In this document: positions 6,622 through 17,114 of the stretch, piece after piece
Layout: every line of letters begins with the position of its first letter
Numbering within the stretch: the first letter of the stretch is position 1
NCBI RefSeq assembly: GCF_003202755.1
Contig: NZ_QGLK01000001.1
Span: 744,001-808,000, forward strand
DNA length: 64,000 bases
Origin: Bifidobacterium asteroides
GTDB lineage: Bacteria > Actinomycetota > Actinomycetes > Actinomycetales > Bifidobacteriaceae
Reading direction: 5' to 3'
Translations under genes and position numbers: made by a program
The notes under the pieces: generated by a model
Database searches by the model: none
Told to the model about the DNA's origin: nothing
Seen by the model: only the letters and a program-made list of their open reading frames with translations

Positions 6622-8163
6622 TCATCCCCGCCAGCGCAGATACTGCTGGTAGACCTGCTCACACGGGTCTCCCGTCAGCGTGGTGTCGATGTTCACCGAC
6701 CAGACGGGGGGCTCCTCTTCTCCATTCAGAGCCCAGGCTGCCTGGCGGGCCGCACCGATGGCCACATACTCGTCCGGCCGCGGCAGCTGGACATCCATCC
6801 CTAGGATTCCTGGGGCATAGGCTCTGACTGCTGGAGACTTGGCGCCGCCGCCGACCAGGAGAATTCTGGAGACCGTGGTGCCAAGCCGTTTCAGCAGTTC
6901 CAGACAGTCGCGCTGGGAGCAGAGCAGTCCTTCCACGAATGCTCTGGCCAGGTTGGGGCGCGTGGTGTTGGCCAGGGTCAGCCCCTCCAGTCTGGCGTGG
7001 GCATCAGGGCGGTTGGGGGTGCGCTCGCCGTCGAAATAGGGAATCAGAGTGATTCCTTCGGCACCCGGCGTGGACTTCTCCGCCAGCTCAGCAAGACCGT
7101 CATAATCCGTGCCCAGGGCGGCCAGACCCGCGTCCAGGATGCGTGATGCGTTGATGGTGCAGGCCAGGGGCAGCCAGTGGCCGGTCGCATCCGCAAATCC
7201 TGTCACCGAGGCGCTCATATCGTATGCTGGAACCGGGCTGACCGCTGCAGCGACACCAGAGGTTCCCAGGGAGATGGAGACGTCGCCCACCTGCATGGCC
7301 AGTCCTAGTGCCGTCATAGCGTTGTCGCCGCCACCCGGTGCGATGATGCAGCCGCCGGGTACATCCCTGCCGGCGATGCGGGGGTCGGCCTTGGCTCCGA
7401 CCTGGTGGGGGCCAAGAACCTTAGGTAGGATCACCCGCTCGGCCATGTCTTCAGGCAGGGCCATGTCCAGAAGGTCACGCCGGTAGCGGTCGGCGGCGGG
7501 GTCGTAGTAGCCGGTGCCGGAAGCATCTGAGCGATCGGTGAAGAGATCCTCCAGCCCGGGTTCGGTCCCCGGGTTGGCTGCTGGGCCATGACCGGCGATG
7601 GCCCAGCTTAGCCAGTCGTGGGGGAGACATATGGCCGCGATGGCCCTGGCATTATCCGGCTCAACCCGGCTGACCCAGGCCACTTTGGTTATGGTCAACG
7701 AGGCTACTGGGGAGGAGCCTACAGCCCGCACCCAGGCTTGTTTGCCGCGCATGGCCAGGTTCCGGTCCGAGTCCGGGTTCTTGCTTGCCCCGTCGTTTTC
7801 CGCCTGAGCGCTTCCAGCCTCTCCGGTCTTTGACTTGGCTAGCCGGATGATGAGCTCGTCGGCATCAGGAGCCGAACGGGTGTCGTTCCAGAGCAGGGCA
7901 TCTCTGATCACTTGCCCTTGACGGTCTAGCAATACCATGCCGTGCTGCTGGCCACCCACACTGATGGCTGAAACGTCGTTCAGACCTCCCGCCTGTGCTG
8001 AAGCCTCTTGAAAGGCCTTCCACCAGGCCATGGGATCAACGCTGGTGCCTGCCGGGTGAGGAGCTTTGCCGAAACGGACCAGCCGACCGGTCCGGGCCTC
8101 GGTGACCCTTACCTTGCAGGACTGGGTCGATGTGTCCACTCCCGCCACCAGGATCTCATTCAT
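6622..8163 (-). CDS. xylB: Xylulokinase, FGGY family
   Basis: A 513-residue sugar kinase that phosphorylates D-xylulose to xylulose 5-phosphate, which in bifidobacteria feeds the phosphoketolase shunt. Visible are the N-terminal phosphate loop (GVDTSTQSCK), the substrate-region GGQQHGMVLL and DALLWNDTR, and the FGGY C-terminal domain with GGGAKSP for ATP. The start at 8163 is set by AAGGAGGCT just upstream; longer frames to 8211 lack a ribosome site. It is divergent from a ROK regulator, the usual arrangement for XylR-xylB. Xylulokinase is favoured over other FGGY kinases by overall sequence and context, but xylose isomerase is not in view. Confidence 0.9.
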   Translation of the reverse strand: MNEILVAGVDTSTQSCKVRVTEARTGRLVRFGKAPHPAGTSVDPMAWWKAFQEASAQAGGLNDVSAISVGGQQHGMVLLDRQGQVIRDALLWNDTRSAPDADELIIRLAKSKTGEAGSAQAENDGASKNPDSDRNLAMRGKQAWVRAVGSSPVASLTITKVAWVSRVEPDNARAIAAICLPHDWLSWAIAGHGPAANPGTEPGLEDLFTDRSDASGTGYYDPAADRYRRDLLDMALPEDMAERVILPKVLGPHQVGAKADPRIAGRDVPGGCIIAPGGGDNAMTALGLAMQVGDVSISLGTSGVAAAVSPVPAYDMSASVTGFADATGHWLPLACTINASRILDAGLAALGTDYDGLAELAEKSTPGAEGITLIPYFDGERTPNRPDAHARLEGLTLANTTRPNLARAFVEGLLCSQRDCLELLKRLGTTVSRILLVGGGAKSPAVRAYAPGILGMDVQLPRPDEYVAIGAARQAAWALNGEEEPPVWSVNIDTTLTGDPCEQVYQQYLRWRG

Positions 8164-8355
8164 GTCAGCCTCCTTGCTTTCTGGGCTCCGGTCATTGGAG
8201 TACTTCACCATAGTATCTCAATTATTAAATCGATAAACTAAATGACCTTGGTCCGGGCCCTCCAATTGCTGACCTGCCGTCCGATTCGAACGTAAGATGT
8301 TGAAGAGGCCCAGGATTCAGCGGGCCTATGTTCGTTCATGAAAGGTTGTTGAACC
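8164..8355. promoter_or_regulatory. Divergent xylB/ROK control region with an AT-rich core
   Basis: This 192-bp gap serves both genes. At 8211-8244 it is strikingly AT-rich around a central ATCGAT (AATTATTAAATCGATAAAC), the type of site ROK/XylR repressors bind; flanking symmetry is poor, so the exact operator is not defined. No gene is seen here. Confidence 0.4.
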
Positions 8356-9591
8356 GTGACTGCCCTGCGCTCTATCAATCAGGATGATTTGAGGAACCAC
8401 AACCTCTCAGTCATCATCGACACCATTCTGCGGTCGCCTACCTCGCTCAGCAGGGCGGATCTGGCCAAGGCCACCGGGCTGACCAAGGCCACCATGTCGC
8501 TCCTGGCAAACATACTGCTCAATAATCATGTTGTTCGTGAAGGTGAACCTGATATTTCTCAGACGACCCATGGACGGCCAAGCACACCGCTTTCCGTGGC
8601 TCATGGCAGATGGGCTGGTTTAGGTCTGCAGATCAACACTGACGGTTTCGGGTGCATGGCTTTGGATCTGGATGGCAGGGTTATCGATGCCAAATGGATT
8701 CACAACGATATGCGAAGAACTAATCCTAAGGATATTTTCGATGAACTCGATGATTTGTCTAGACCTATTGAGAAGGCTCTGAATCATAAGCACTATCGCC
8801 TGGTGGGTTCTGGTCTGGCTTTGCCAGGGTTGGTAACCGATGATAATACTTTGCTCATGGCGAGGAATCTCGGATGGGAACGCTTGGATCTTACTCAGTT
8901 TTCTGTGGTCAGACGATTAACACCAAGAGCGGGCAACGAGGCAAGACTTGCAGCATTATCGCAGATTCCAGGACAGGCAACGCAAAGATTGACAAGTTCG
9001 CATGAGTGCACACTTGCCCCTACAGATTCATTTATCTATTTATCCACGGATATCGGCATTGGAGGTGCGGTGGTCCGTCGTGGCTCTGTAGAGACGGGAG
9101 ATCACGGTTTCGCCGGCGAGCTTGGCCATGTTTCTGTGGATTTAAATGGTCCTACTTGTCGTTGTGGGCGTAGAGGATGCCTGGAAACCTATGCAGGGCG
9201 GCGAGCTCTCGTTGAGGCAGCTTGCATAGCTTCCGGGGATGATGCCGTGAAGTCTGAATCGATGGATGAACTTTACAAGCGTTGGCAGCAGGGCGATGCC
9301 AACGCAGTTGATGCCATAGATCGTGGATTGGATGCCATGATCTCTGTGATTGTTACCGTAATTAACATAGTTGATGTCGATACCGTGATTCTAGGAGGGT
9401 TCTGGTCTAATTTTGGCTCTGAATTGTCTGATCGTCTTGAACAACGTTTGAATGAGCTTTCTCTTGGACGGGATGCGGTCAATATTCGTGTGTTGATGCC
9501 CTTGGTGGCTGATTATCCGGCTCTGAGGGGAGCGGCCCAGGTGGGCTTGCGCAGGTTCATTGACAATCCATTGGACTTTTTGTCGGCATGA
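8356..9591 (+). CDS. ROK-family transcriptional regulator (XylR/NagC-like)
   Basis: A 411-residue regulator with an N-terminal winged helix-turn-helix (SRADLAKATGLTKATMSLLA) and a C-terminal ROK sugar-kinase-like fold. The ROK zinc motif CRCGRRGCLETYAG and the GELGHVSV signature are intact. The start is a GTG with GAAAGG about 10 bases upstream. Divergent placement from xylulokinase suggests it represses xylB when xylose or xylulose is absent, which is inference. Base use is more AT-rich than in xylB or lacZ and resembles the following minus-strand block, so it may have arrived with that block. Confidence 0.88.
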   Translation: MTALRSINQDDLRNHNLSVIIDTILRSPTSLSRADLAKATGLTKATMSLLANILLNNHVVREGEPDISQTTHGRPSTPLSVAHGRWAGLGLQINTDGFGCMALDLDGRVIDAKWIHNDMRRTNPKDIFDELDDLSRPIEKALNHKHYRLVGSGLALPGLVTDDNTLLMARNLGWERLDLTQFSVVRRLTPRAGNEARLAALSQIPGQATQRLTSSHECTLAPTDSFIYLSTDIGIGGAVVRRGSVETGDHGFAGELGHVSVDLNGPTCRCGRRGCLETYAGRRALVEAACIASGDDAVKSESMDELYKRWQQGDANAVDAIDRGLDAMISVIVTVINIVDVDTVILGGFWSNFGSELSDRLEQRLNELSLGRDAVNIRVLMPLVADYPALRGAAQVGLRRFIDNPLDFLSA

Positions 9592-9619
9592 CCGATCTGT
9601 ATATATCTCTCTTAATCGG
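9592..9619. terminator. Weak inverted repeat between convergent genes
   Basis: CCGAT ... ATCGG (5-bp stem, 18-base AT-rich loop) fills the 29-bp gap between the ROK gene and the convergent esterase gene. It could act as a two-way terminator, but the stem is short. Confidence 0.25.
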
Positions 9620-9620
9620 C

Positions 9621-10916
9621 TTAATTGTGAAAAATACACTGCAAAAAGTTGTATAGGGCCAAATGCCAATTGCCAGAGGAATGGTATCGCATAGGAAATA
9701 CATCGAATCGGGTATTTTTGCCTGGCTCCAGTCTGTTGTCAACCTTGAGCAGGTTACGGTAGTCATTAAGTTGTCCTGCCAAAGCGAAATCAAAACTACC
9801 GCTTGATGCATATAGGTAATGGATTGGATATGTGCTAAACGGGTAAGCACAGGCAGTTGTTTTGAACTCATGTGCACTGGTTCGGCTGCCGCTAAATGTG
9901 CCGAACCAGGAATAATAATCTAGATTTTGCTCTATTGCTGAATGGTAGGTGGTGACTGCTCCTCGCGACAGGCCAGCGAACGCTCGGTGATTACGGCTTG
10001 CTCGGAATCCTTGGTCATCGATTTTTTTCGCATAAGTGGAATAGCGGGACTCGACCGCAGGCATAAGATCTCTGCGCAGCTCTTTTGCGAAAGAATACGT
10101 CAAGGTATCCAGATGGTCTTTTGCATCATTTTGAACATAAAAAGAAGGGGTAACGATAATCATTGGCTTGATGATTCGATGATCGATCAATTGATCAACC
10201 ATGTGAACATTTTCGGGATGCTTCTTCAGCCAGTAACTAGCGCTATCTCCTGTTCCATGCATGAGATAAAGGATGTCGTAGCTCTTGTGCTGATCGTATT
10301 TGAAAGGAAGGTAAACGTAGGCTGTTTTCTGAACTTCGCGTCCGTCGCTGCTGTAGGCATGGGTTCGATACCCAAGGGGCCGGACAGTGCCAGGGTGATT
10401 GGACGTTGATTCGAACTCACTTGGGACCGACCATATACTTGGCCCGGCTTGAGTTTTGTCCCTGGCCAGGGTCATACATGTCTGCCATAAGGTGGCCGCT
10501 GTTACACAAAGCACAATCAATACAGCCAGGATTTTCCGGCAGGCAACCAAATCAATCTTGGTATGGCCTTTTGCCATAGCTAAACTGCCCATACAAGCTG
10601 CTAGAAATGCAATACCTGCGATAATGAAGAAAGCTATGTTGTCCATAGCCGTTCCCCGATTGTTCATAAAATCTCCAAGTGCAAGGTTTATGCCAACCAC
10701 CAGGATCAGTATTGGTGAACAATGTGTCATTACGGTCAGAACGCATAGGAGTATGGAGCACAGGTCGACGAATGCGATTGTCAATACAGGCAATAACGAT
10801 CCGTATGTTGCATATCTCAGAACATCGAGTACCGAGATTATTGTAATTGCGCCTGTCCCAACGACATTGATGCAGTCTACCGGAGTGTTCAAAAGGGAAC
10901 GGATATGAACGAACAT
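9621..10916 (-). CDS. Membrane-anchored CE1-type esterase (feruloyl/acetyl esterase-like)
   Basis: A 431-residue protein in two parts. Residues 1 to about 150 form four or five membrane segments; residues about 180-431 are an alpha/beta-hydrolase of the esterase D / enterochelin-esterase (CE1-like) type. HGTGDSASYW (oxyanion region), GLSRG (nucleophile Ser317), SGSFD (probable Asp376) and NWHLALYNFL (probable His418) make a complete triad. The catalytic part is probably extracellular. CE1 enzymes remove ferulic or acetyl groups from plant polysaccharides, or phosphorylated side groups; the substrate here is unknown. It is the last gene of a unit with the GH3 enzyme and the small membrane protein (9-base gap). 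No clear Shine-Dalgarno is seen. AT-rich relative to the window. Confidence 0.8.
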   Translation of the reverse strand: MFVHIRSLLNTPVDCINVVGTGAITIISVLDVLRYATYGSLLPVLTIAFVDLCSILLCVLTVMTHCSPILILVVGINLALGDFMNNRGTAMDNIAFFIIAGIAFLAACMGSLAMAKGHTKIDLVACRKILAVLIVLCVTAATLWQTCMTLARDKTQAGPSIWSVPSEFESTSNHPGTVRPLGYRTHAYSSDGREVQKTAYVYLPFKYDQHKSYDILYLMHGTGDSASYWLKKHPENVHMVDQLIDHRIIKPMIIVTPSFYVQNDAKDHLDTLTYSFAKELRRDLMPAVESRYSTYAKKIDDQGFRASRNHRAFAGLSRGAVTTYHSAIEQNLDYYSWFGTFSGSRTSAHEFKTTACAYPFSTYPIHYLYASSGSFDFALAGQLNDYRNLLKVDNRLEPGKNTRFDVFPMRYHSSGNWHLALYNFLQCIFHN

Positions 10917-10925
10917 AGCCAGGTT

Positions 10926-11300
10926 TCACTTGTTTCTGTATGGGTAAATAACCGTGGTAGCACCAGCTAGGATCAAAGTCACCACAATGAGCACGGCTGA
11001 TACAATCCAGGAGGTGCTGAGTCCCTCCATGTTCATCTTTGAGAAGATCGCATAAAGTTCATCAGCTCCTGACTTGGTAAATAATAATCCGGCTACAAGT
11101 AGACTTAAGAAGGGGATATACTCCACAAACTTCCAGCCCGGGTTGAACAGTAAGAGTATTTCAAGCAGTGCCCCGAGTATAAGGAACAGCATTATCGCAA
11201 TAACGTGGCCTTGGGCCTTGGAGGTTATATAGACCAGTGATGTGATAAGAGCGATTGCTGCTGTTGCTATGCAAACAAAATTGGTTATCGCCTTATTCAT
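10926..11300 (-). CDS. Small integral membrane protein of unknown function
   Basis: A 124-residue protein with four predicted membrane helices (opening AITNFVCIATAAIALITSLV and ending TLILAGATTVIYPYRNK) and no recognisable domain. ATG at 11300 follows the GH3 stop by one base, so translation is coupled; a TTG 18 bases earlier would overlap the GH3 gene. Its place between a membrane-tethered glycosidase and a membrane-fused esterase suggests a scaffold or partner role at the cell surface, but nothing in the sequence proves that. I do not recognise the family. Confidence 0.75.
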   Translation of the reverse strand: MNKAITNFVCIATAAIALITSLVYITSKAQGHVIAIMLFLILGALLEILLLFNPGWKFVEYIPFLSLLVAGLLFTKSGADELYAIFSKMNMEGLSTSWIVSAVLIVVTLILAGATTVIYPYRNK

Positions 11301-11301
11301 T

Positions 11302-14235
11302 TCAATTGTCGCTTTCAATAGTGATATGAGCGGAATTTCTGCTCTTTCGAATCAGGGTTATGAAGAGTGCAAGATCGATCACGCATAGCAACCCAACTAC
11401 CGTATAAGCCAATTTCAGCCATGGCGGAGTCACTTTTACCACCCTTGAAGCTGTGGACAGACCATTGACGCCATTGCTGTTGACAAAGGTGTAAAGAATG
11501 ATATGTCCGGACTGGCGCAAATTGGACAGCATTTTCTTATCGTGTGCTGCTTGCTTGACAATCTGGTCGTGGAAGGTGGATGCTGAGGTCGCCCACATGG
11601 TGTTGCCTGCTTCCAACCCGGCGCCGGCATTCTGCAGGATTGGGTTAATAGCCATATCAGTATCTACAATCGCCATAGATCCCCATTCACCCCTGATCAG
11701 GTTTTTGATCAGCTTTTGGTGCGCTCCCGTCCATATGCATCCAATGCGGTTAAACGAGCCCATTGTGGCTTTAACGTGGCCATCAGTGAAAGGTCGTTCA
11801 AAAGCTTTGAGGTAGATCTCTCTGATGGTTTGCTCATCAGCAAATGTGCATACGCCTTGCCGGTTGGTTTCCTGATCATTCATGGCGAAGTGCTTGGCAA
11901 AGGCCACAACACCGTGTTTTTGCAATCCCGTGACTGCTTCATAGGCAAATTCGCCTGACAAGTAGCCATCCTCTGAGTAATACTCGAAGTTGCGCCCAGA
12001 ATACGGTGTGCGATGGATATTCATCGCAGGAGCATAAGCACCTGCTGTGTCCGTTCTTATCCAATCCTCTGCCTTTGCTTCGTTTTCCTGATGTATTAGA
12101 GAACGGTTAAATGTAGAAGCATCAGTAACCTCACCACAATATCCAGTTGCCTTGCTTCCATCCTCTACATATGGTCTGACGTTGTTGCCTTGAGGCCCGT
12201 CTTTCATGAATTGAGCAGGGAATGAAATTGATGGAATTGCGACCTGTCCAGAACGTGTTACTAAAGTCACCAAATCATCCACGCTCATTTGATCAAGTAG
12301 TTTTTCCCATCTTGGATCATTGAACCGAGCCTTATGCATTTGAGCGAAGGTTAAGCCATTTTTGGCCTTAGTGGTGATCGACGATGTATCCTTGTCTCCG
12401 GCTTGATATCCGCCAGCGGCATCTATATCATGAATCATCGCATCGGTGGCTTTGAGCTTGTTGTATGGTTTCGGGAATGTTGTCCAATCGCTGCGTGTCA
12501 GATACCCTGTTCGCTTTCCATAATGTTCCAGCCCGGCTGATTGGAATATGTTGCCGATGACTTTGCCTGAGTAGGCTTTGTCCAACTTGATAGGCTTTTC
12601 GTTGTGCCACAGATGCACGCATCCTGGATCACCATGCTCATCCATTCTTGCGGGATTCGCTCCACGGCTAGCAAGGATGTTATTCAGTGCTTGGTGGGCA
12701 TTGTTGCCAATAGCAAAGTAGAAATCACCCTGATCGAGAACATATGTTTTCAAAGTATGCGCATCGTAGGAGGAATAATCGCGTGCTTTCACTTTGATAG
12801 TGACCAAAGTACTTTGCCCAGGTTGAAGAACCGGTGTCTTGTCAAAACCAACAAGTTGAATTGCCGATTTTTCGATGCCCCCACGTTGATACGGCTGCTG
12901 TGCATACAGTTGTACGACGTCCTTGCCGGAAACATTGCCTGTATTGGTCACTTTGACTTCGAAAGTCGCTCCCCGCTCGTCTGCAGAAGAGGAAACAAGT
13001 TGTTGCTGGAAAGGATGACCTTCACTATTGCCATAACTGAGACCATATCCGAACGGGAACACTACTTCACGATCGTAATTCCAAGTTTTGTCTGCAAAGG
13101 CGCCAGAGGACGAATTGGCCTTTGTCCCTTCCGGGTCGAGGACACTGTCAGCATATCGAGTTTCATAATAACGATATCCTGTATAAATTCCTTCGCGATA
13201 AACCAGATATTTGTCGCCTTTGTTGGCAGGACCAATACGTTTGTTGATAGCTTGGCCATTGGTGAAGGTGAAGTCTCCGAAATTTTGCATGGCAGGTGCC
13301 GAGAACGAATTTGACGCATAGGTGTCAACCAGGCGGCCTGAAGGATTAACTGTGCCATCCAATATCCTGGCTATTGCTCTGGCTCCGCTTTGTCCGAGTC
13401 CGCCTGCCCACAAGGATGCATTGATGCCGTATTGGTTTTGATCCATCCAACTGAGTTCCATGGCATTGGATGTGTTGATAAGCGCGATGACTTTCCCGAA
13501 TTTTCCGCTGTCATGGATTTCCTTGAGCACTTGCTTTTCACTGTCCTGAAGGGCAAGGTATCGGTTTCCGTCGCCGAATTTACCAGTTGGCATGTCAGAG
13601 CCTTCACCGCCTACGCGTGAGAACACTACGATGGCTGCGTCTGCGAAGGTATCGTATGATTGGTGAACGGCTGCTGTGTATTCGCTGACGGGTGGTTCGG
13701 CTATATGCACATCCTTGGGTAGTGTGCCCATGTATGTTCCATTGGAACGAATATAACCAGGCTTACCCTTGTAGGATTGATAAAAGTTCCACATGGTTTT
13801 GTTGACTTTGAACCCTTCTGCGGTCAAAGCCTTGTTGAGGTCGACGGCTCTGTCGGGATCTATGCCTCCAGCTCCAGTACCACCCAGGACCAAATCGGTG
13901 GATGATCTGCCAAACAGAGTAACCTTCGAGCCCTTTGCCAGTGGTAGCGTGTTCGCATCATTTTTCAGTAACACGATGCCTTCACCGGCAACCGTCTGTA
14001 CAAGCGAGTCTGCTTTGGTCTTCCATTTGGAGAGGGGCATTCCATTGCCTCTGGCTTCGTAAATTTTATTGGCTTTTTCTGTATCCTTTATTGTGAAAGG
14101 GCTCCCACCAAGTACGGTGGTCACATAAGAGCTGTATGTCCTGGCACCAGATACTGCTCCTAAAGAAAGGGCAAGTACAATGCTCGTTGCCGCCGTGGCA
14201 ACACGCACAGCTCGTTCGGCGCTGTGTTTGCTCAT
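11302..14235 (-). CDS. Glycoside hydrolase family 3 with permuted domain order, anchored at both ends
   Basis: A 977-residue GH3 enzyme (beta-glucosidase/beta-xylosidase type). The order is reversed from most GH3s: an N-terminal membrane/signal anchor (about residues 9-30), the alpha/beta sandwich domain usually found second (AGEGIVLLKND, GGTGAGGID), a fibronectin-III-like domain (VKVTNTGNVSGKDVVQLY), and only then the TIM barrel (FMKDGPQGNN, KHFAMNDQE, nucleophile Asp860 in IVDTDMAIN). A second membrane helix (KLAYTVVGLLCVIDLALFI) sits near the C-terminus. GAGGAG lies before ATG 14235. Permuted GH3s are known, for example in Ruminococcus and Butyrivibrio. The double anchor suggests a catalytic loop held outside the membrane. 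It lies downstream of a two-component system on the same strand. Confidence 0.9.
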   Translation of the reverse strand: MSKHSAERAVRVATAATSIVLALSLGAVSGARTYSSYVTTVLGGSPFTIKDTEKANKIYEARGNGMPLSKWKTKADSLVQTVAGEGIVLLKNDANTLPLAKGSKVTLFGRSSTDLVLGGTGAGGIDPDRAVDLNKALTAEGFKVNKTMWNFYQSYKGKPGYIRSNGTYMGTLPKDVHIAEPPVSEYTAAVHQSYDTFADAAIVVFSRVGGEGSDMPTGKFGDGNRYLALQDSEKQVLKEIHDSGKFGKVIALINTSNAMELSWMDQNQYGINASLWAGGLGQSGARAIARILDGTVNPSGRLVDTYASNSFSAPAMQNFGDFTFTNGQAINKRIGPANKGDKYLVYREGIYTGYRYYETRYADSVLDPEGTKANSSSGAFADKTWNYDREVVFPFGYGLSYGNSEGHPFQQQLVSSSADERGATFEVKVTNTGNVSGKDVVQLYAQQPYQRGGIEKSAIQLVGFDKTPVLQPGQSTLVTIKVKARDYSSYDAHTLKTYVLDQGDFYFAIGNNAHQALNNILASRGANPARMDEHGDPGCVHLWHNEKPIKLDKAYSGKVIGNIFQSAGLEHYGKRTGYLTRSDWTTFPKPYNKLKATDAMIHDIDAAGGYQAGDKDTSSITTKAKNGLTFAQMHKARFNDPRWEKLLDQMSVDDLVTLVTRSGQVAIPSISFPAQFMKDGPQGNNVRPYVEDGSKATGYCGEVTDASTFNRSLIHQENEAKAEDWIRTDTAGAYAPAMNIHRTPYSGRNFEYYSEDGYLSGEFAYEAVTGLQKHGVVAFAKHFAMNDQETNRQGVCTFADEQTIREIYLKAFERPFTDGHVKATMGSFNRIGCIWTGAHQKLIKNLIRGEWGSMAIVDTDMAINPILQNAGAGLEAGNTMWATSASTFHDQIVKQAAHDKKMLSNLRQSGHIILYTFVNSNGVNGLSTASRVVKVTPPWLKLAYTVVGLLCVIDLALFITLIRKSRNSAHITIESDN

Positions 14236-14342
14236 TTCGGTATTCTCCTCACGGTTCCACTAGGCTGAACCACGGCCAGACTATGACATACATAATCTGA
14301 GGAAAATCATTTGGCAAATATCGGCCGCTTTCGGGCAAGGAA

Positions 14343-15599
14343 TCATAGAAGGAGGCTGGCAACGAAAAGATCGCCCTCCATGCCCAAATGCAAAGTGCCC
14401 TTGTATTTGTTCGTAGTGTATGCAACGCTTCTCAGGCCAAATCCGTGGTTTTTCCTGTCGTCCTTTGTGCTGACAGGCAGGCCATTGCTCATGTTTGGCT
14501 TGCTTCGACAGTAGTTTTCCACTCGAACTCCTATTAAGCCATCGATGGTGCGAATTTTAAGACCTATGTATCTTTGAGTATGATCACTTACTTTACGTTC
14601 GTATTCAATCGCATTATCAAGAAGGTTGCCGAATATTGACGCTATATCACCAGGATCGAGCCGAGAAAGGGAATCAGGCTGAACCATGATAGAAAAGACA
14701 ATTTCATCCTGTCTGCACAGCATTTCCTTTTGGCTCAGAATCAGGTCCAATTCCTTGTTGCCGGTATGGGGACTGTTGTCGTAACTGTCAAGAATCGAAC
14801 TAATTTCAGACAGGTCATCCTTATCTTCTCCCAATCCTTCCTGTATGCGCAAGAGTTGATGTTTGAGATCGTGTGCCTTCATATTGATTAGATCAATATT
14901 CTGCTTGGTCAGTTCATATTGTTTGGCTTCCTGCCTCATAAGGCGTTCCAGTGCAATTCGCTCTCCGCTTGCAGTTTTCAGGGCGACAAAACCGTATTGC
15001 ACGCAGAGACCTGCTACGCAGCACAGCATCAAGGGCAGATGAGATACCCAATAGTTTCCGATTCCAGTGATTTGATATTGATATTGCATGAGATACACAA
15101 ACACGGCTGTGATCAAGGCGAAGGAATAGACGTATGTATCGTTAATTTCGGCTGTAGGGTGCGGCCCAGAGCGTTTTGCTATGACTAGATAGGTCAGACC
15201 GTATGTCAAACAGGTACAAGTGATTGAGAGAGCCAGGCTCCCAACAGCGTTGAAATGCTGGGCAAAAGGCTGATACAGTGCTTGTTCGAGGTTATACGAC
15301 AGATTTTGCACCAGTTGCGCACTAACACAACAGAACAAAATATCCTTGAAGCTTTGGAGAAGACAAGCCCACCATAAAATTAGAGACAAAAGAAATACCG
15401 TCAGCGAGAAAAGACCTGACCAGTGGTTGTTTATCCAGTTGGGGACGACGACCATCAATGGAAGAACGACGATCAACCCGATAATCAATCGGCTGTAAAA
15501 ATGCGTGCGTTTGCTCAAGCGATAAGTGAAGAGCGTTTCAGCTAGGAGGATTTGTGGAATATATCCGTGAGCAACGGTGATGGCCAGATAAGAATTCAA
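14343..15599 (-). CDS. GHKL sensor histidine kinase (AgrC-like)
   Basis: A 418-residue sensor: about six or seven membrane helices in residues 1-210, a helical linker, then a GHKL kinase core. The phospho-acceptor His is in KAHDLKHQL, the N-box is NLLDNAIEYE, and the G-box region is HGFGLRSVAY. This layout belongs to the HPK10 group (AgrC, ComD), which mostly detect peptides outside the cell. It begins 5 bases after the LytTR regulator stop and clearly pairs with it. No agrB/agrD-like gene is seen nearby, so the signal is unknown. A 107-bp gap then leads to the GH3 gene; it holds the GH3 ribosome site and a short GGTTC/GAACC repeat but no obvious terminator. Confidence 0.88.
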   Translation of the reverse strand: MNSYLAITVAHGYIPQILLAETLFTYRLSKRTHFYSRLIIGLIVVLPLMVVVPNWINNHWSGLFSLTVFLLSLILWWACLLQSFKDILFCCVSAQLVQNLSYNLEQALYQPFAQHFNAVGSLALSITCTCLTYGLTYLVIAKRSGPHPTAEINDTYVYSFALITAVFVYLMQYQYQITGIGNYWVSHLPLMLCCVAGLCVQYGFVALKTASGERIALERLMRQEAKQYELTKQNIDLINMKAHDLKHQLLRIQEGLGEDKDDLSEISSILDSYDNSPHTGNKELDLILSQKEMLCRQDEIVFSIMVQPDSLSRLDPGDIASIFGNLLDNAIEYERKVSDHTQRYIGLKIRTIDGLIGVRVENYCRSKPNMSNGLPVSTKDDRKNHGFGLRSVAYTTNKYKGTLHLGMEGDLFVASLLL

Positions 15600-15604
15600 G
15601 TATT

Positions 15605-16309
15605 CTACGCCTTTCCAGCCAAATAAACAGCTAATTGCTGACGAAACTCTTGCTTATGGGAATGCGCAACGGGCAGGCAAGTCCCATCCAAACCAACAGT
15701 GTCATTATCAACGCGGGTGATGTAAGCCATGTTTACCAGAATCGATTTTCTGATATTCACGAATCCTTGGACAAGCAAACGTTCATTCACATCTGACATG
15801 CGACCGCGCATTCTGTATTCACCTTGTGAAGTATGAAAAATAAGGTAATGCTTTTGGCTTTCGACATAGAAAATATCTCGAATGGAAAGTCGTCGAAAAT
15901 CATCCCCCGGTTGGTTTATTACGATGCTTTCATCTGGATGAATTGATCGCATGGCTTTGTTCATCTTGATCTCAAACAAGTTGTAATGCAACGGCTTAAC
16001 AATGAAGTCGAAGGCTGAAACCTCGTATCCGTGCAAGGCATATTGTGGCTGAGTTGTAATGAAGATAAGACAAAGATCCTGATCTTTCTGACGCATTTTC
16101 GCAGCCGTCTCCAAACCGTTGGCTCCAGGCATGATGATATCCATGAAAACCAGCTGATACTGTCCAGCAAATTTATCGAGAAAGCTGAGTCCATCAGAAT
16201 AAAAGTCGTACGAAAGGGCTAGATGCTGAGTACTGGCATAACGACGCAAATAGTTTTTCATACGTGTTGCAAAATTTTGATCATCTTCTACTACAGCGAC
16301 GCGAAACAT
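15605..16309 (-). CDS. LytTR-family response regulator
   Basis: A 234-residue response regulator: receiver domain with the acidic pocket (VVEDDQNF), phospho-acceptor Asp in FMDIIMPGANGLE and the conserved Lys in FIVKPLHYN, followed by a LytTR DNA-binding domain (IRDIFYVESQKHYLIFHT, FVNIRKSILVNM). ATG at 16309 gives the normal family opening MFRVAVVEDD; an in-frame ATG at 16366 would add 19 residues without family similarity. Neither start has a strong Shine-Dalgarno. It pairs with the kinase just downstream and probably controls the GH3-esterase genes that follow; this is inference from order and strand. AT-rich like its neighbours. Confidence 0.9.
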   Translation of the reverse strand: MFRVAVVEDDQNFATRMKNYLRRYASTQHLALSYDFYSDGLSFLDKFAGQYQLVFMDIIMPGANGLETAAKMRQKDQDLCLIFITTQPQYALHGYEVSAFDFIVKPLHYNLFEIKMNKAMRSIHPDESIVINQPGDDFRRLSIRDIFYVESQKHYLIFHTSQGEYRMRGRMSDVNERLLVQGFVNIRKSILVNMAYITRVDNDTVGLDGTCLPVAHSHKQEFRQQLAVYLAGKA

Positions 16310-16423
16310 GTTTTTATGATACGTGATTAGCGGCGCTGGAAGTTTGGTGAAGAGTGTAGAAGGCATGCTTAGTGCAGGCTTTGTCCCTGTTGCTTTCGCC
16401 AGAATGCAATGCAGGAAAGGTGA

Positions 16424-16439
16424 TTAGAGTCTTCTCTAA
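16424..16439. promoter_or_regulatory. Inverted repeat upstream of the LytTR regulator
   Basis: TTAGAG-TCTT-CTCTAA is a perfect 6-bp inverted repeat about 115 bases before the response-regulator start, in a 262-bp gap with no clear gene. It may be a regulatory site of the two-component locus; LytTR proteins usually bind direct repeats, so assignment is uncertain. Confidence 0.35.
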
Positions 16440-16571
16440 CGACTAAGGGACAACCCCTGGTAATAATGCAAAGTAGGAGCGGGCCACTCAATTGGAAAAA
16501 GTGGTTGCTAATTTCTAACTACGAGCCGGTTCAGCAGTTGTCTGAAAGGTCACTCAGCCATTAAATGTGGG

Positions 16572-17114
16572 TTAGCGCTTTTCTGATAATGCAGGCAACT
16601 CCCTGCCGCCGACCTTGAAGAGGGCGTGGGCATCTCCGCCTTGCAGACGTTTCAGATAGGTTCGAGCTCGGGCCATGCGTTCCACAGTGGTTTGGGCCAG
16701 CGGGGCTGGGAGTTGACCGGGGTTGAACCAGCCGACTGACAGGCTCTCCTCGTCACCCACATAGGGGTCGGCATTACCGCTGGGGTCGGGCCAACAGATG
16801 AACAGATGATCCATGTACATGGTCTTATCCCCGTTGGCATAGGTGACTATCTCTTGGGAGGATGTGACCGCAGCCAGGTCGGTGACGATCACATCCACCC
16901 CGGTTTCCTCCTTGACTTCGCGGACCACGGTGTCGGCCGGATCCTCGCCAGGTTCGTTGATCCCATAGACCAGAGCCCACTGGCCGGTGTCGGAGCGCCG
17001 GCCCAGCAGGACTCGGCCCTGGTCGTCAGTGACGAAAGCCGTCACACCGTTCAGCCAGAGCAGGTCATGGCCTATGAACCGGCGCAGTCTGAGTACGAAG
17101 TCAGGAGTGGGCAT
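16572..17114 (-). CDS. Nudix hydrolase
   Basis: A 180-residue pyrophosphohydrolase. The Nudix box is complete (GINEPGE, seven residues, then REVKEETGV), giving the metal-binding glutamates. The family removes nucleoside diphosphates linked to other groups; the LLGRRSDTGQWALV segment and size resemble NUDIX proteins annotated as 8-oxo-dGTP or ADP-ribose hydrolases, but substrate cannot be read from sequence. It starts 3 bases after the pepP stop and is probably cotranscribed with it. GC content returns to the window norm here, marking the edge of the AT-rich block. Confidence 0.9.
   Translation of the reverse strand: MPTPDFVLRLRRFIGHDLLWLNGVTAFVTDDQGRVLLGRRSDTGQWALVYGINEPGEDPADTVVREVKEETGVDVIVTDLAAVTSSQEIVTYANGDKTMYMDHLFICWPDPSGNADPYVGDEESLSVGWFNPGQLPAPLAQTTVERMARARTYLKRLQGGDAHALFKVGGRELPALSEKR

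Follow-up and report, generated by a model that had tools for sequence, protein, structure and literature searches.

A five-gene cassette with membrane-bound enzymes in Bifidobacterium asteroides

The stretch of DNA analyzed here, which we call the window, comprises 64,000 nt of Bifidobacterium asteroides contig NZ_QGLK01000001.1 (assembly GCF_003202755.1; positions 744,001-808,000). It contains a cassette of five genes on one strand, encoding a two-component sensor pair, a permuted glycoside hydrolase of family GH3, a small membrane protein that we call P4, and an esterase. The original prediction had named these five parts from the letters alone, and the listing of open reading frames (ORFs), the Pfam matches and the hydropathy profiles bore it out. 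The features are as follows.

15605..16366, minus strand: LytTR-type response regulator, REC plus LytTR domains (Pfam LytTR 2.7e-16, Response_reg 8.6e-16)
14343..15599, minus strand: AgrC-like GHKL histidine kinase with a multi-transmembrane sensor part (Pfam HATPase_c_5 4.3e-21)
11302..14235, minus strand: GH3, permuted exo-glycosidase with a transmembrane helix at each end (Pfam domain order, hydropathy, structural model)
10926..11318, minus strand: P4, small four-helix membrane protein (AlphaFold; no match in Pfam or NCBIfam)
9621..10916, minus strand: membrane-fused CE1-type esterase (Pfam Esterase 1.9e-9)
8356..9591, plus strand: chimeric ROK regulator, the first ~200 bp like that of relatives, the remainder xenologous
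8550..16590, no strand: imported block, approximate breakpoints (identity profile and blastn against the site in relatives)

All three effectors (GH3, P4 and esterase) carry transmembrane helices by hydropathy, as had been proposed. Their spacing was given as 1-9 bases, which holds for the 9 bases between P4 and the esterase but not for GH3 and P4, which overlap by 17 bases; 107 bases separate the kinase from GH3, using the called starts. A scan for promoters and terminators did no better than on shuffled sequence.

The Pfam order Glyco_hydro_3_C, Fn3-like, Glyco_hydro_3 identifies the GH3 protein as permuted. Residues D860 and E211 are invariant in 24 alignment rows, and we take them to be the nucleophile Asp and the acid/base Glu of the family. 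Hydropathy places transmembrane helices at residues 10-28 and 944-962, and positively charged residues flank both on their outer side in the sequence; read with the positive-inside rule, this would put the catalytic part outside the cell. The structural model (pLDDT 86) matched the permuted enzymes 5k6o and 5wug best, over 913 and 937 columns, while canonical GH3 structures among the matches listed aligned over 437-627 columns only. Domain order, catalytic residues and fold thus agree with the permuted subfamily of GlyA1. GlyA1 and the P. barengoltzii beta-glucosidase (PDB 5k6l-o, 5wug; PMC5104943) share the sandwich-Fn3-barrel order, but the window enzyme differs from them in its two terminal helices; none of the terms transmembrane, kinase or regulator appears in the body of PMC5104943.

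P4 has 130 residues, with three transmembrane segments by hydropathy and four helices in its AlphaFold model (pLDDT 90). A fold search against the PDB returned nothing significant (best E 0.16). In the esterase, five N-terminal transmembrane helices precede the catalytic domain, in which S317 (within GLSRG), D376 and H412 are invariant in six rows and presumably form the Ser-Asp-His triad. By profile, its closest relative is the feruloyl esterase domain of XynY (1gkk, E 3.6e-47). The protein is best described as a CE1-type esterase whose nearest solved relatives are feruloyl esterases, and feruloyl activity is predicted. It has the domain and triad of the XynY and XynZ enzymes and differs from them in its fusion to the helices.

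The kinase has four transmembrane segments by hydropathy, and H243, in the motif KAHDLKHQ, is invariant among the four paralogues of this genome, as are D75 and K123 (alignment numbering) of the regulator. Judging by the alignment, the true start of the regulator is probably an internal ATG about 19 codons further in. The kinase profile found no match among PDB sequences at 0.001.

One version of a widespread module family

Relatives of the cassette were sought in 189 genomes of the family, where the nearest GH3 relatives (65, 60 and 58% identity) lie in three genomes of two other genera. At three loci (L187, L188 and L189), regulator, kinase, GH3, P4 and esterase follow one another in the same order on one strand, with protein identities of 31-64%, for which the P4 region of L188 was left out, and a GC content near that of the surroundings. 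Because this order recurs in three other genomes, it is more than chance, in keeping with the proposal of a self-contained module. XylK, ROK, NUDIX, PepP and FolC found no match beside these three loci. A fourth locus, L101, on a contig of a goat metagenome-assembled genome (MAG) assigned to Oscillospiraceae, where misbinning is possible, keeps regulator, kinase, GH3 and esterase in this order but has a multi-transmembrane ORF of 132 residues in the P4 position, which gave no sequence match to P4.

The B. asteroides genome itself contains four LytTR genes and four matching kinases, each near a permuted GH3 gene:

Module A: the window cassette
Module B: P4-like protein, GH2 and a GtrA-like protein (below Pfam's cut-off)
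Module C: GH78, MFS_2, GH3 and a P4-like protein
Module D: GT2 and two GH3

These four fall in separate places in the tree, and a recent duplication was therefore rejected as their origin. Two further permuted GH3 genes of this genome (L019 and L020) have no LytTR gene nearby. Weak P4 relatives lie downstream of GH3 in modules B and C, at L187-L189, and at L203, L110 and L128. More generally, a small multi-transmembrane ORF follows GH3 in 24 of 132 cases, near-copies included, compared with 59 of 945 other genes (p 1.6e-5).

Linkage between LytTR genes and permuted GH3 genes is pervasive in the genus. LytTR genes occur in 23 of 27 genomes (own included) and full-length permuted GH3 in 21, all of them among the 23 (Fisher p 8.5e-4, kinship ignored). 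Every one of the 21 has a LytTR gene within 7 kb of GH3, and 24 of the 27 LytTR genes in the 27 genomes have a full-length permuted GH3 no more than 10 kb away; the other three are a second copy in G005, one in G015 and one at a contig end in G017. Beyond the genus, we took the best 80 of 577 loci from a scan of named genomes with the GH3 alignment, mostly from Bacillota and Actinomycetota, and counted regulators and kinases by six-frame search. Both were present in the flanking DNA of 40 of the 80 loci, many of which are cut off by the contig end, and a regulator was present at 18 of the 29 loci with at least 5 kb of flank on both sides. In a set of 40 loci across phyla (39 genomes, hand-chosen mostly for long flanks), 28 had a linked regulator, against 2.2 expected from 285 LytTR genes in 111.5 Mb; the maximum of 200,000 simulations was 11. 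With an ORF caller, a regulator or kinase lay within 6 kb of permuted GH3 at 59 of 104 loci, namely the window, 3 others from this genome, the 80 above and 20 from the family picked among high GH3 scores.

A GH3 tree was built from 52 linked rows, taking for each locus the one GH3 nearest the regulator, so that the cassette GH3 of L188 is absent from it. The window enzyme falls in a 15-row clade, 14 rows of which come from loci with a small multi-transmembrane ORF after GH3; at the fifteenth, L109, the contig ends. Bifidobacteriaceae rows interleave with those of Bacillota, requiring 9 changes, of which at least 8 are forced by well-supported branches. The family of the window genome is taken to be Bifidobacteriaceae from its gene content and from the position of Alloscardovia L143 next to a family row in this tree. 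Within Bifidobacteriaceae, GH3 and regulator distances agree (Mantel r 0.64, 23 rows). The transmembrane helix at both ends of GH3 was considered as a hallmark of regulator linkage and rejected: 40 linked and 35 unlinked enzymes have both, and 10 and 7 do not (p 0.79).

The cassette is one version of a widespread module family that keeps the sensor pair and GH3 and swaps the partner enzyme. Across versions, the partners include GH2, GH78 with an MFS_2 transporter, CE1 and GDSL enzymes.

Repeats upstream of linked GH3 genes

Published LytTR sites consist of two 9-bp repeats with 12 bp between them, according to the portions available of PMC2766830 and PMC6193735. In the upstream regions of 149 GH3 genes, near-copies among them, 9-mer repeats that agree at 8 of 9 positions are most frequent at a period of 21, with 19 observed and 4.8 expected. 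A two-block motif, approximately [AG]CAGTTTATGCCA twice, reached a log-likelihood gain of 265 (24 starts), compared with 116-122 in three shuffled sets (8 starts each). By eye, we take it to resemble the AgrA box. In-sample, 49 of the 149 upstreams reach p 0.01 with the two-block model.

After near-copy removal, 136 GH3 upstreams were kept. The period-21 repeat occurs upstream of 16 of 89 linked GH3 genes, compared with 2 of 47 unlinked ones and 60 of 794 controls (p=0.002). Coding DNA is among the controls and inflates their rate at periods divisible by three. Allowing periods of 20-22, the counts are 24 of 89, 6 of 47 and 101 of 794 (p 6e-4). L019 and L077, two GH3 genes that lie at a distance from all LytTR genes in their genomes, carry strong pairs of the same motif (in-sample), which suggests that module D may act in trans.

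A model trained on non-bifidobacterial upstreams settled on an A-rich motif resembling a ribosome site, and we give it no weight despite a test p of 4e-5. Trained in the opposite direction, 15 of 91 upstreams exceeded the 5% false-positive threshold and 3 of 91 the 1% threshold. Two of the fixed patterns are in excess: perfect 7-bp inverted repeats, possibly terminators or near-copies (49 vs 23 expected), and a GGTT dyad (10 vs 3.5). AgrA-like patterns are not (6 vs 5.4; 13 vs 13.2).

The sensor pair and its ligand

AgrC/LytTR pairs are usually interpreted as peptide receptors, and the original prediction called this one peptide-type. The cassette indeed shares with Agr quorum sensing a GHKL kinase with a multi-transmembrane sensor part and a LytTR regulator, as identified by Pfam. 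It differs in that no AgrB was found in its genome and in that the genes linked to the pair encode glycan enzymes. AgrB (PF04647) was found in none of the 27 genus genomes, this one among them. Of 28 genomes that contain linked modules, 4 gave a match, and the 24 that gave none include some incomplete MAGs. Since it was detected in four carriers, the search is able to find AgrB. Inspection by eye of the small ORFs at 14.2-16.6 kb revealed no recognizable peptide gene; no search was aimed at double-glycine-peptide systems. Because AgrB was mostly not found and no peptide gene was seen in that interval, the peptide-type label is not supported, and we favor a small non-peptide compound as the kinase ligand. 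The signal is probably a sugar-linked compound and not a bacterial peptide.

A LytTR regulator may also belong to a LytTR Regulatory System (LRS), in which, according to the source text available, it pairs with a membrane inhibitor, distinct from a two-component system. The cassette does not fit this scheme: its regulator contains a REC domain and is encoded next to a GHKL kinase, and P4, with no Pfam match, sits after GH3.

Import of the block

The proposed drop in base composition below the flanks is confirmed. GC content is 0.468 over 8550-16590, compared with 0.624 and 0.630 on the two sides, and GC content at third codon positions (GC3) is 0.44-0.50 in the five genes and 0.49 in ROK, compared with 0.78±0.05 (lowest 0.67) in 28 mechanically called ORFs of at least 300 aa elsewhere in the window. 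The site was compared in 12 of the 26 other genus genomes, chosen by closest PepP. In nine of the 12, ROK and NUDIX lie 26-46 bp apart and the block is absent; L208 and L215 carry other genes between the two, and L216 has neither ROK nor XylK at the site. The ROK-NUDIX gap may be an insertion hot spot, to judge from those other genes in L208 and L215.

Breakpoints could be placed near 8.55 kb and 16.59 kb. The two relatives that were profiled share an identity of 0.84-0.96 with the window as far as about 8550, inside ROK, and of 0.54-0.73 across the remainder of that gene. The first ~200 bp of ROK are about 0.88 identical to the two relatives, and all the rest diverges sharply from their gene, in agreement with the prediction that the ROK gene goes with the block in its composition; in five relatives, the ROK gene at this site has a GC3 of 0.72-0.79. 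At the other end, blastn matches to five relatives resume at 16590-16591, next to the stop codon of NUDIX. A search for repeats at the two ends of the block gave nothing convincing. The same block with normal composition does not recur in all close relatives: the esterase, at E 0.001, is present in 1 of 27 genus genomes, namely this one.

A block of about 8.0 kb has therefore been imported, replacing most of ROK, and the suspected transfer is upheld by the empty site and the breakpoints. The replacement of most of ROK suggests homologous recombination, the donor being a relative of lower GC that would already have carried the cassette beside ROK. ROK as an original part of the cassette was rejected, since it occupies the cassette-free site in nine relatives and has no match beside L187-L189.

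What the cassette might do

We propose that this is an acquired cassette in which a sensor pair switches on surface enzymes for acylated plant glycosides, and give this reading a probability of roughly 0.58. The membrane GHKL kinase would sense a small extracellular compound and phosphorylate the LytTR regulator, which in turn would turn on a cell-surface set of GH3, P4 and esterase. The exo-acting GH3, held in the membrane at both ends, might have P4 as its four-helix partner, and the membrane-fused acyl (feruloyl-type) esterase could act with it at the cell surface. Together, they would remove both the acyl groups and the terminal sugars of decorated plant glycosides or oligosaccharides. Such substrates are suggested by the partner genes of the family, GH78 with its transporter, GH2, CE1 and GDSL.

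Several results weigh against this proposal. The partner-enzyme argument is weak because GH2 (8/40 linked vs 5/40 unlinked) and MFS_2 (7/40 vs 6/40) occur almost as often at unlinked GH3 loci, whose average length is smaller, and GH78 appears at 3 of the 40 unlinked loci and at none of the 40 linked ones. Pfam found no transporter among the five cassette genes. In the window, the operator score upstream of GH3 is not significant (p 0.09), and nothing upstream of the regulator stands out as a LytTR operator; the predicted co-regulation is supported indirectly, by linkage and by repeats upstream of linked GH3 genes elsewhere, but not by a convincing operator here. Half of the 80 named loci have no regulator in the DNA examined, and outside Bifidobacteriaceae GH3 and regulator do not co-diverge (r 0.09, p 0.18, 29 rows).

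Possible, if on the unlikely side, is a broader proposal, in which these pairs belong to a large non-peptide AgrC/LytTR branch in Bacillota and Actinomycetota. The kinase would sense a glycosylated amphipathic molecule (a plant glycoside, an acylated oligosaccharide or the freed aglycone), and GH3 and P4 would deglycosylate this ligand beside the kinase; the enzyme would thereby determine the signal as well as its own expression. A shade less probable is that the enzymes trim the cell's own teichoic acid, exopolysaccharide or glycolipid, with the kinase sensing the state of the envelope. The transmembrane helices of all three effectors are compatible with this, as are GT2 near module D and the GtrA-like gene near module B. 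Partners elsewhere, however, are GH78, GH2 and feruloyl-esterase-like CE1 enzymes, and two permuted GH3 enzymes act on plant-type beta-glycosides, as far as the parts available of PMC5104943 and PMC11233000 tell.

Alternatively, the pair could travel with GH3 through shared mobility and exert no control over it. Transfer is plain, and no convincing operator is present in the window; yet the LytTR gene within 7 kb of GH3 in 21 of 27 genus genomes, the period-21 repeats upstream of linked GH3 genes and the repeat pairs at the remote L019 and L077 genes make this explanation quite unlikely. Least probable of all, in our view, is an output of peptide quorum sensing, in which an autoinducing peptide is sensed and the bacterium remodels its own surface or biofilm glycans at high density. 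The AgrC/AgrA architecture of the pair speaks for it, whereas the distribution of AgrB and the small ORFs of 14.2-16.6 kb, with the limit given above for double-glycine peptides, speak against it.

Relation to known systems

With the control proposed above, the cassette would belong to a known kind of system, two-component control of surface carbohydrate enzymes, of which it is a fresh version. In Butyrivibrio proteoclasticus B316, three LytTR regulators (PUL7, 21 and 33) are each close to a secreted GH3 with a C-terminal transmembrane helix, and carbohydrate sensing was suggested in 2010 (PMC2914790). In the available part of that source, the account is one sentence on one genome, and kinase type, permutation, double anchor, P4, operator, esterase version and spread are absent from it. 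The arrangement, predicted to be rarely described, is so in the open literature searched, but its adjacency was noted in that report and is common in sequence. We found no description of the cross-phylum family, its operator, P4 or the esterase version in open-licence literature, where most subscription papers are absent.

Gram-positive polysaccharide utilization loci (gpPULs) combine glycoside hydrolase genes, a carbohydrate transporter and a regulator. The cassette lacks the transporter, and module C does have MFS_2. As described in the available text of PMC5320581, the gpPULs of Roseburia and E. rectale likewise hold hydrolases and a regulator in one locus, and Ros-7 lists RR[LytTR] and HK; they differ in having mostly LacI/AraC regulators together with transporters. 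A LytTR gene linked with cellulase genes is also on record in the accessible portion of PMC5733062.

The association of AgrC/LytTR pairs with a surface glycosidase in bacteria of two phyla, in most of which AgrB was not found, offers a testable route to a class of non-peptide ligands and bears on how surface deglycosylation of plant compounds might be turned on in bifidobacteria and Clostridia. If the enzymes were inactive or constitutive, these observations would be worth no more than a census of linked genes. Because close relatives have the same site without this compact, mobile cassette, what it does can be compared between nearly identical backgrounds.

Variants of the module

Some loci depart from the usual arrangement. 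At L055, L058, L059, L060 and L062, compared with L052-L054, all in module D of some genus genomes, a divergent permuted GH3 on the opposite strand stands beside the canonical GH3, as if swapped. Two modules lie close together, within 20 kb, at L195, L196, L204 and L143, and at the last of these (Alloscardovia omnicolens) kinase matches are spread over several short ORFs. The permuted GH3 of L201 (7202-10321) is split into two adjacent ORFs of 534 and 499 aa and is apparently broken. Regulator and kinase share a single frame of 696 residues at L067 (G018; 6649-8736), a possible fusion, and in G036 LytTR lies within a frame of 695 residues. At L016 (6547-8631), a GH20-type gene sits directly upstream of module B.

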